From contig JAJYBX010000010.1 of assembly GCA_021778785.1 (NCBI GenBank), forward strand, positions 1-16,501: DNA of 16,501 nt. Reading direction: 5' to 3'. The notes under the pieces are model-generated. The model saw nothing but the letters and a program-made list of their open reading frames with translations. It was not told the DNA's origin and did not search any database. Positions 1 to 15,519 of the stretch are shown here, piece by piece. The stretch's first letter is position 1. Every line of letters begins with the position of its first letter. The stretch is from Acidobacteriota bacterium. GTDB taxonomy: Bacteria > Acidobacteriota > Holophagae > Holophagales > Holophagaceae. The position numbers and the translations under genes were made by a program.

Positions 1-360
1 CTGGTCCACGTCCCCCCGCACCCGCATCAGGGAGAACTCGAAGAAACCCGCCATGGGCGGCGGCAGCACATAGCGCGTCTCCCCGCCCTGAGGGAAATCC
101 AGCAGCATGGCCCGCGCTGCGAGGGCCTCCAGCGCGGCCTCCGCCTTCGCCTCGGGGATCCGCCAGATCGCGGCGGCGCGGCGGGCGGTGAAGGGCCGGA
201 TGGGCACCTGGGCCAGGAGCCCGGCCTCCTCCTCGCTCAGCAGCAGACGGAGGATCTGGAACAGCCGCTCCGAGGGCGGCGCGCCCTGGGGGAAGCGGTT
301 GAGCCGCGTCACCAGGCGATCGTAGGTGCCGTGTCCGGGTCGGAGGGAGGCGTGGCCCAT
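1..360 (-). CDS. 4Fe-4S ferredoxin-type protein, N-terminal part (cut by window edge)
   Basis: The reading frame starts at an ATG at 358-360 and stays open for 120 codons to the left window edge, so only the N-terminal part is visible. The visible part has an arginine-rich, helical, winged-helix-like stretch (about residues 25-85) followed by a segment containing LPPPMAGFFEFSLMRVR near residues 99-115. From memory, that segment is typical of a family of 4Fe-4S-binding proteins of roughly 350-400 residues whose cysteine clusters lie further downstream; none of those cysteines is in this window. The gene is divergent from the molybdopterin oxidoreductase starting at 471, with 110 nt between them, so an electron-transfer link is possible but not shown. 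No strong Shine-Dalgarno sequence precedes the ATG. The family call is recollection, not a search result. Confidence 0.6.
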   Translation of the reverse strand, partial: MGHASLRPGHGTYDRLVTRLNRFPQGAPPSERLFQILRLLLSEEEAGLLAQVPIRPFTARRAAAIWRIPEAKAEAALEALAARAMLLDFPQGGETRYVLPPPMAGFFEFSLMRVRGDVDQ

Positions 361-13522: not shown

Positions 13523-13650
13523 GCTTTTCGGATTGCGCTGACCCGCAGTGCAAGATGGCGGCGCGATCCCGGTGGTTCCCGTCCAGGATCCCCCCGCGCC
13601 ACGCCACGGCCGCCCGGAGGTCTCCCCGATCCCGCACCCCGGAACCCGCC

Positions 13651-14193
13651 ATGCCTTCGCTCCTCGGCCACGCCGCCGCCGGCCTCGCCCTGAACGCCGC
13701 CTTCGCCGGCCACCAGGCGCCCCGCCGCAGCTGGGCCCTCGCCGCCGCCTGCGCCCTGGCCCCGGACCTGGACTGGTTCACGGCCTTCCTCCACCTGCCC
13801 TACGGGCATGTCCTCACCCACCGGGGGGCCACCCACTCCCTGGCGGCCGCGGCCCTCATCGCCAGCGCCGCCATGCTGCTGGGCCTGCGGTCCCATCTGC
13901 GCAGCCGGAGGCTCTGGCTCTGCCTGTTCGCCGCCGCCTTCTCCCACGGCCTGCTGGACGCCTGCACCCTCGGCGGGGTCGGCGTGGCGGCCTTCCTGCC
14001 CTTCTCGGGCGAGCGGTACGTCTGCGTGTGGCAGCCCATCCGCGTCTCGCCCATCCCCCTCACGGGGCGCCTGTGGGTCCGCTTCCTCGGCGCCCTCTGG
14101 ACCGAGGCCGTGTGGATCGGCCTTCCGGCGATCCTCCTCGTCACCGCCGCCCGCGCGGCCCGCTGGGTCCGGCCTGTGCCTGACCACGCCTAG
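13651..14193 (+). CDS. YdjM/DUF457-type membrane-bound metal-dependent hydrolase
   Basis: This 180-residue integral membrane protein is of the DUF457 (YdjM/YbcI-like) family, annotated as inner membrane metal-dependent hydrolases of uncertain substrate. It starts MPSLLGHAAAG, with the family's early GH motif. Conserved polar motifs DLDWF near residue 40 and HRGATHS near 57-63 supply likely metal ligands (Asp and His). Further hydrophobic stretches follow, with FSHGLLDACT holding another conserved His and Asp. The ATG at 13651 gives the family N-terminus; 32 in-frame upstream residues from 13555 are low-complexity and rejected. Its TAG stop (14191-14193) is formed by the TA target duplication plus the first G of the mobile element. 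It is oriented opposite to msrQ and msrP and sits between them. Confidence 0.82.
   Translation: MPSLLGHAAAGLALNAAFAGHQAPRRSWALAAACALAPDLDWFTAFLHLPYGHVLTHRGATHSLAAAALIASAAMLLGLRSHLRSRRLWLCLFAAAFSHGLLDACTLGGVGVAAFLPFSGERYVCVWQPIRVSPIPLTGRLWVRFLGALWTEAVWIGLPAILLVTAARAARWVRPVPDHA
14191..14192. repeat. Left TA target-site duplication
   Basis: TA immediately outside the left terminal inverted repeat matches TA at 14582-14583 outside the right one. With the first G of the element it forms the TAG stop of the upstream membrane protein gene. Confidence 0.55.
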
Positions 14194-14211
14194 GGCCTGT
14201 TTTCAAATTGG
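14193..14211 (+). repeat. Left terminal inverted repeat (19 bp)
   Basis: GGGCCTGTTTTCAAATTGG is the exact reverse complement of 14563-14581. With the flanking TA the perfect match is 21 bp. Confidence 0.95.
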
Positions 14212-14266
14212 ATGTGAGCCGCGACGCCGGCCAGCCGCGCCCATGGCAGATATCTGTACGTCTCGC

Positions 14267-14398
14267 GTATCGCCGGAGGCGATACCGAGAGGGCGCCGAC
14301 CGCGGGGCGATGCGGGACATCGTTCACCATCCGCCAAGCGGATAGGGCCGCATCGGCGCAGCCGATGGCGGGGGCGGAGCCCCGAGGGCCAAGGGCCC
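14267..14398 (+). other. Run of short hairpins inside the MITE-like element
   Basis: Four exact stems with three-base loops occur in order. GTATCGCC/GGCGATAC lies at 14267-14285 (loop GGA) and CATCGGC/GCCGATG at 14351-14367 (loop GCA). GGGGC/GCCCC lies at 14371-14383 (loop GGA) and GGGCC/GGCCC at 14386-14398 (loop AAG). They could structure a transcript reading through the element or act as terminators. No known RNA family is recognised. Confidence 0.5.
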
Positions 14399-14562
14399 GA
14401 GCCAGGGTCGGCAACGCCGCCAGGGGTGCGGCTGGCCACGTCCCGGAGGGCAAGGGGCGGCGCCCGGCGCGAACCTGCGTCAAGCTCCTCGTCGATAGTG
14501 CCGCTATTGCCATCGTCGCTTTCCTTGTCTCGCTTGGGCGGCGCCCCTTGCGCGGCCGCACC

Positions 14563-14581
14563 CCAATTTGAAAACAGGCCC
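14563..14581 (-). repeat. Right terminal inverted repeat (19 bp)
   Basis: This is the exact reverse complement of the left terminal repeat at 14193-14211. Its last C plus the following TA forms the reverse complement of the msrP TAG stop. Confidence 0.95.
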
Positions 14582-15519
14582 TAGAAGTTCCGCCGCAGGT
14601 CCAGGCCGGTGTACAGCGGGGCCACCTGGTCGCCGTAGCCGTTGAACATCAGCGTGGGCCGGCGGAACCACTCGCCGATCCGGCGCTCCGTGGCCTGGCT
14701 CCAGCGCGGGTGGTCCACGGTCGGGTTCACCGTGGCGTAGAAGCCGTACTCGTCGGGGCTGGACTTGGCCCAGCTGGTCCAGGGCTGGTCCCGCACGAGG
14801 CGGATCTCCACGATGGACTTGGCCCCCTTGAAGCCGTACTTCCAGGGCACCACCAGCCGCAGGGGGGCCCCGTTCTGGTTCGGCAGCACGCGGCCGTAGA
14901 CACCGAAGGCCAGGAGCGTGAGCGGATGGTTCGCCTCGTCCAGCCGCAGGCCCTCCAGGTAGGGCCAGTCCAGCACCGGCAGGCGCACGCCGGGCTCCTG
15001 GGCGGGGTCGTCGAGGGAAAAGAAGGCCACGTAGCGGGCCGTGGACTTCGGCGCCACCCGGTCCAACAGGGCCTTCAGGGGAAAGCCCGCCCAGGGGATG
15101 ACCATGCTCCAGCCCTCCACGCAGCGCATGCGGTAGATCCGCTCCTCCAGGGGCGCCAGGCGCAGCAGATCCTCCAGGCCGAAGGTGCGGGGCTTCAGGC
15201 ACTCGCCCGTCACCCGCACGGTCCAGGGCCGGGGCTTCAGGCGCCAGGCCTCCCGGGCCGGGTCGTCCTTGCCCGTGCCGAACTCGTAGAAGTTGTTGTA
15301 GCCCGTCACCTCCTCCCAGCGGTTGGGCCGCTCGGTGGTGCTGAAGGGGCTGCGGGCCAGGGGCCCCAGGCCGCCTGGATCCGCCGCCCCCAGGGGCAGC
15401 CCCGTGGCCGCCAGGGCCAGGGCCGCGGCCGCGCCCCCCAGGAAGGCCCGGCGGTCCAGGTAGAGGCCCTCCGGCGTGATCTCGGAACCGGCGACGTCGG
15501 GCGGGCGGCGGATGAGCAT
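14581..15519 (-). CDS. msrP: Periplasmic protein-methionine-sulfoxide reductase catalytic subunit MsrP
   Basis: This 312-residue molybdenum enzyme reduces methionine sulfoxide in periplasmic proteins and receives electrons from MsrQ. A twin-arginine signal is present: LDRRAFLGG with the arginine pair at 23-24, followed by a hydrophobic stretch, so it is exported folded with its cofactor. The molybdenum-ligating cysteine is Cys133 in [15 protein letters not shown]. Other family features are [18 protein letters not shown] (about 64-81) and [11 protein letters not shown] (229-239). GGAGG lies 5 nt before the ATG. The TAG stop at 14581-14583 is made by the end of the mobile element plus the TA duplication. 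The gene is divergent from modE, which fits a need for molybdate; msrQ lies on the same strand further downstream, beyond the YdjM-like gene. Confidence 0.95.

Follow-up and report, generated by a model that had tools for sequence, protein, structure and literature searches.

A TA-flanked element with a covarying folded core lies between the regenerated stop codons of two convergent genes in Geothrix

Introduction

Insertion sequences (ISs) of the IS427 group, as tabled in PMC3281130, are ~850 bp long with 2-bp duplications in most tabled members, and in some of them two ORFs overlap and a frameshift motif is present. For ISPsp10 (IS5/IS427), the account in PMC4133298 states that a TAA at the target supplies its transposase gene with a stop codon, and the targets of IS5 in E. 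coli are given as CTAA/CTAG-like sites in the relevant part of PMC11677980. Non-autonomous relatives of such elements have been described as well. The sections of PMC10969869 and PMC2229807 that deal with bacterial MITEs (Chunjie, RUP, ERIC, QMITE2, and CIR) present them as short, mostly bounded by terminal inverted repeats (TIRs) and intergenic, often with a terminal TA and stable folds, with QMITE2 found mainly in the 3' untranslated regions of ORFs. The Tn3-derived miniatures called TIMEs are described in the corresponding part of PMC4133298 as non-autonomous, sometimes mosaic, with transcripts predicted to fold.

We analysed an inverted-repeat element in a 16,501-nucleotide stretch (hereafter the window; contig JAJYBX010000010.1), and compared it with elements in other genomes of Geothrix and of the phylum Acidobacteriota. 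No publication on this element family was found in open-licence PMC full texts, with ISfinder and subscription journals outside the scope of that search.

Results

The element and its two flanking genes

The element occupied positions 14193-14581 of the window (389 bp) and was flanked by TA at 14191-14192 and 14582-14583. Its outermost 19 bases at either end formed perfect inverted repeats, GGGCCTGTTTTCAAATTGG, with the left TIR at 14193..14211 on the plus strand, the right TIR at 14563..14581 on the minus strand, and base 20 unpaired. The junctions read C-TA followed by GGG on the left and CCC followed by TA-G on the right. The left TA together with the G at 14193 made up the TAG stop (14191-14193, plus strand) of a gene for a YdjM-like membrane protein (13555..14193, plus strand; YdjM PF04307, E 5.9e-23, with the Pfam domain from residue 34 and the start codon uncertain). 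The right TA together with the C at 14581 made up the TAG stop (14583-14581, minus strand) of msrP (14581..15519, minus strand), whose product, the catalytic subunit of protein-methionine-sulfoxide reductase, was identified as Oxidored_molyb PF00174 by Pfam and as MsrP by NCBIfam. The preliminary description had reported perfect 19-bp repeats between TAs and a duplication that recreates TAG on both sides, and the repeats, the junctions and both ORF ends bore this out. It had also described an interior lacking a transposase. This part stood, in that the longest ORF almost wholly within the element (14190-14561, minus strand, 123 aa) had no Pfam match at E<=1; the interior itself was found to be a conserved folded core rather than filler.

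Empty site, copies, and target

A relative with the empty site was found in genome G011, where msrP was 92% identical to that of the window. The junction there read GAGCATCCCTAGAAGTTCC, with the YdjM-like ORF ending at 1501 (plus strand) and msrP at 1498 (minus strand), so that both stops lay on overlapping TAGs within one common CTAG, as the preliminary description had anticipated. To the right of the element, similarity between G011 and the window started again at CCCTAGAAG; to its left, the YdjM-like gene differed in its last codons. Among 46 other Geothrix genomes, G011 was the only one with a match to the msrP of the window at E<=1e-60.

TA-flanked copies, likewise anticipated, were present in the same genome and across Geothrix. 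Complete copies of 269-389 bp were found on five contigs of the own genome (C330, C309, C62, C249, and C272), together with a miniature of 55 bp (C192) and copies truncated at contig ends. A single-copy sequence or a chance repeat was rejected because a search of the own genome allowing <=3 mismatches gave 13 TIR-like ends versus 0 for a reversed control pattern. The own-genome ends adjoined CTAG in 14/15 cases and TTAG in 1/15, and an end adjoining CTAG was present in 29/47 Geothrix genomes. A script run on 90 Geothrix stretches recovered 61 TIR-paired elements, of which 48 had CTA/TAG flanks, 8 TTA/TAG, and 5 CTA/TAA; this sample was found by a pattern requiring CTAG at one end, and the counts leave out 30 single ends. 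The 13 asymmetric sites among the 61 fitted only a 2-bp TA duplication, which ruled out a 4-bp duplication of CTAG. The element was therefore short, multicopy and TIR-bounded, with a TA duplication and an empty site in a relative, as expected of a MITE.

We also observed 23-bp TIR-to-TIR palindromes with CTA and TAG flanks in four Geothrix genomes (L239 1715-1737, L247 1758-1780, L248 1787-1809, and L296 1781-1803). The L296 palindrome lay at the same site as the 336-bp copy L289, only a 23-bp TIR-TIR remnant being left in L296. These palindromes fit a deletion between the TTT repeats of the two TIRs, after which the stop is still rebuilt.

Insertion sequences with matching ends

An autonomous IS with the same ends had been suggested as a partner, and an 861-bp transposase-bearing IS with very similar ends was found in another Geothrix genome (L078 in G030). 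Its outer bases equalled those of the window TIR at 15/15 positions on the left and 13/15 on the right. It was flanked by TA and carried two ORFs (1600-1986 and 1860-2354) with DUF4096 and DDE domains, over which the NCBIfam model transpos_IS5_3 (NF033580) was divided. Its sequence fits an IS5-family, IS427-like element, the group name being suggested by size, reading frames, and TA flanks. Six of the 61 paired elements were 860-861 bp long, all from G030, and L078 is the one studied closely. L078-like transposase matches were found in 6/47 Geothrix genomes, and none at E<=1e-10 was found in the own genome, which is an 80%-complete MAG.

Two further end patterns occurred in 21/47 and 22/47 Geothrix genomes, the latter also in the own genome. 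One of these two, referred to below as the second end type, was that of a 1537-bp IS in Geothrix (L465) with GGAGCCTGTCCAAGTAA ends, whose transposase was assigned to the IS1182 family (NF033551, 382.8 bits at a cut-off of 270). The own genome held another type of MITE (L006 and L007, on G000:C316 and C95) with ends GAGTGCCTAACA, a possible TTA duplication, and the same kind of core; its end pattern was present in 22/47 Geothrix genomes.

The tip of the window TIR was seen in more distant bacteria as well. In Vineibacter terrae (L088, L090, L093, and L137) it was located ~125 bp away from contig ends, a position that repeated IS copies would produce by breaking the assembly. In Calothrix and Symploca (L087, L121, L130, L144, and L155) it bounded 132-bp elements without arms, which constitute another MITE, in cyanobacteria.

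A two-armed folded core

Twenty-seven copies of 266-271 bp were aligned and gave one fold of 89 pairs, 32 of them with compensatory change. In this alignment, which leaves out L235 (one of 28 candidates) and every module-bearing copy, both sides of a pair had changed in 133 cells, versus 28.3 in shuffled alignments and <=19 in slid controls. The fold consisted of two arms inverted relative to each other, whose models have internal-loop spacing in common. In the window, arm A was the hairpin at 14223..14442 on the plus strand, with its borders taken from shorter copies, and arm B was the hairpin at 14450..14551 on the minus strand (model R1, 111.6 bits). Between them lay a mini-hairpin, CCC-N3-GGG (14442..14450), nearly invariant in the aligned phylum set, where it formed helix 3 with 99.0% of cells paired. 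The arm B model also detected arm A in 4/7 sources, the window, L049 and L222 being the other three. The arm A model scored just 19.5 bits in the window (14266-14362), the arm there being split by two inserted modules.

Both modules were inserted at internal loops of arm A, on the plus strand. The first (14250..14294) was a hairpin of ~43 bp, of which ~30-45 bp recurred elsewhere in Geothrix (L020, L021, L022, L024, L025, L124, and L319). The second (14327..14404) comprised several hairpins in 78 bp, of which 65 bp recurred at three places in the own genome (L008, L009, and L013, on C186 twice and on C157). At two orthologous sites (L225/L240 and L052/L245) a module was present in one genome and missing in the other. 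REP and REPIN sequences are hairpins of 20-40 bp that have GTAG or CGTC at the foot and are associated with a tyrosine transposase; the two modules (43 bp and 78 bp) have a REP-like appearance.

The fold was very stable, with a z of -7.25 for the window element as RNA and of -9.86 for the L222 copy as DNA. At gathering score, Rfam covariance models matched nothing in the window; with looser limits they matched nothing in 14150-14620 (E<=5) or in the elements of eight loci (E<=1). The single hit among those loci, a lysine riboswitch (RF00168, 62.5 bits), lay at 108-281 of L368, outside the element. The compensatory changes suggest that the core is a selected structure, and template-switch repair of hairpins, instead of selection, could account for part of the covariation.

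Homologous cores under differing ends across Acidobacteriota

The arm B model matched 41/47 Geothrix genomes, and at least 54/396 genomes and at least 20/210 genera of Acidobacteriota, the phylum figures being lower bounds under stricter filters. At 84 loci, an inverted repeat surrounded the arm in 74, and TA flanked it on one or both sides in 63 and on both in 34, counts that lean upwards in that the script placing the ends rewarded TA flanks. Thirty-two elements from nine families, hand-chosen from the 84 loci to span different ends, were aligned. In this alignment 65/68 pairs showed compensatory change, both sides had changed in 627 cells versus 186 when shuffled, and the covariation score was 0.713 versus 0.190 (shuffled) and <=0.162 (slid). 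Covariation of the TIR stem is expected in any transposon, and helix 1 (29 pairs) includes that stem; in the remaining helices, 36/39 pairs changed on both sides. The arm A model placed an arm A inverted next to arm B at 8/9 loci tried, in six families (f1, f5, f19, f25, f28, and f30), and found no arm A at the ninth, L391 (f61). Homologous cores thus lay under differing TIRs in Acidobacteriota, and the interior is the longest-lived part of the element.

The arm was found at E<=0.1 in none of 40 further sources (best 0.64), these being 35 non-Geothrix contigs with the window end pattern, drawn from a set of at least 111 stretches, four viral contigs with a partial TIR, and L424. The last of these was the one viral contig matched by the arm pattern, and it was rejected as a core carrier, the arm model giving no support at E<=1. 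Relatives of the 270-bp L222 core were found neither in plasmids (E 1e-3) nor in phages (E 1e-2) at blastn sensitivity.

We propose that the two-armed core is a mobile folded cassette spread across the phylum and longer-lived than its ends. By exchanging or adapting its TIRs it would have been moved by transposases from two or more IS families, and it would be kept for an effect of its folded form, either on its own spread or as a host gene-end element. In our judgement the case for this proposal is evenly poised. The nearest competitor, to which we give somewhat less weight, holds that no ends were swapped: the TIRs of one ancient MITE lineage drifted in step with a turnover of resident transposases, and the functionless fold was kept by template-switch correction of imperfect palindromes. 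The TIRs do form a chain, as such drift would leave them. By single linkage over 18 positions, those of the 32 elements joined into one group at 11 identities, and into 6, 10, and 16 groups at 12, 13, and 14, where shuffled pairs reached 10/18 at the 99th percentile. However, the ends fit two IS families, and within Geothrix they were not coupled to the cores. L363 agreed with L374, L407, and L417 at 45-58% of 20 end bases and at 72-76% of the core (shuffled cores, 53-54%), whereas L407 and L417 agreed at 90% of the end and at 64% of the core, so that the two parts of the element are uncoupled in this genus. Palindrome correction moreover leaves conserved unpaired bases unexplained, and the CCC/GGG of the mini-hairpin, the A of the GACGC loop in arm B, and the matching T in arm A were invariant or almost invariant across the 32 elements.

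Gene ends at the insertion sites

We next compared insertion sites with unoccupied ones. Coding frames were assigned with a codon model for which long ORFs had served as training data and in which the correct frame scored best in 603/648 test windows. Collapsing orthologous sites reduced 55 non-IS elements to 49 independent insertions, and 201 unoccupied CTAG sites in 800 kb of arbitrary stretches from 12 genomes served as background. A gene ended on the rebuilt TAG at 43/49 insertions versus 83/201 unoccupied sites (p 2e-9), and genes ended on both sides at 17/49 versus 9/201 (p 6e-8). Across four settings the counts were 42-43 (either side) and 17-18 (both sides) of 49, versus 82-83 and 8-9 of 201. 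The reading expected of a gene interior, with one side running in and the other away, was obtained at 34/201 background sites versus 0/49 elements. For ten of the 16 double-stop sites listed, 18/20 proteins matched a Pfam family at E<=1e-3, 17/20 of them above the curated cut-off, and several matched to the end of the profile (for example, triosephosphate isomerase, residues 3-242 of 244). Paired IS copies lay mostly away from gene ends (1/6 at one).

Elements collected with the structure model had a stop at 11/13 further Geothrix sites and, as judged by the Geothrix-trained codon model, at 4/9 sites in other genera; this tally leaves out the 41/74 elements without TA on both sides. The second end type behaved differently. 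Its 19 elements, chosen by their ends and not individually by core, had a stop on either side in 11/19 and on both in 1/19, no clear excess, and the double-stop excess is shown for a single end type. The rule put forward in the preliminary description, that such an element tolerates insertion at gene ends, thus held as a statistical one for the window end type in Geothrix, and its double-stop part did not extend to the second end type.

An excess of double stops might also mean that the host profits from the element in addition to tolerating it, if the folded transcript acted as a two-way terminator or insulator. Double stops were over-represented even among stop sites (17:26 versus 9:74, p 3e-4), the very stable folds described above would suit such a role, and two of five orthologous sites showed higher conservation in the element than in its flanks (268/269 versus 753/800, and 266/270 versus 713/797). 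The other three sites did not follow this pattern: in L237/L264 the element (118/155) had diverged at least as much as the flanks (299/388 and 352/400), in L228/L235/L301 it was just slightly more conserved, and in L289/L296 the comparison was limited to 23 bases. A consensus search of 14000-14800 revealed neither a promoter-like site nor a terminator-like one (a hairpin followed by a T-run), and the second end type lacks the double-stop excess. We consider a terminator or insulator role unlikely on this evidence. That the stops at the window site are a single lucky event with no broader rule is very improbable: 83/201 CTAG sites in these genomes sit at a stop anyway, but 43/49 independent insertions do so, 17 with two stops. 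Chance is thereby refuted for the window end type, provided that the coding classification (603/648) is not badly in error, and the Pfam spot checks argue that it is not.

Discussion

The element is very probably a MITE with IS5-family, IS427-like ends, mobilised in trans into CTAG (more widely YTAR) such that stop codons are spared, with a folded core inside. Judging by the matching ends, an IS5-family transposase acting in trans would move it, and insertion at CTAG (YTAR) would duplicate the central TA. The landing is neat because the target holds a stop on both strands; with G as the first base of the element, C as its last, and a stop on each strand of YTAR, an insertion at a gene end would rebuild the stop. 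By the same token, a TAA stop would turn into TAG because the element begins with G. Selection against landing in genes and promoters would then leave copies mainly at gene ends, so that the stop rule is one of target choice plus survival. Between the ends, the covarying two-armed core would be selected for the fold itself.

These features offer a testable rule for entering a dense genome without breaking genes, namely a target with a stop on both strands and an element whose first base completes it. The conserved interior also lets one ask directly what the folded interior of a MITE does.

The locus shares with the IS5/IS427 elements its presumed partner, as the 861-bp Geothrix IS fits that group in length, two frames, and TA flanks. 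It differs in that the stops of host genes are rebuilt on both sides and in that the window element has no transposase. The likeness to the IS1182 family lies in the second end type, whereas the ends of the window element are of the IS5-family type. Among bacterial MITEs, Chunjie is said, by the title of its description, to have inserted without disturbing an operon. The elements described here differ from known bacterial MITEs in a strongly covarying core common to nine families, under TIRs that differ and with ends matched by ISs of two families. As far as our searches show, conservation here resides in the interior and not in the ends, which inverts the usual view of a MITE. The contrast with TIMEs is of the same kind: TIME derivatives hold their ends and vary the core, whereas the Acidobacteriota core family holds its core and varies the ends.
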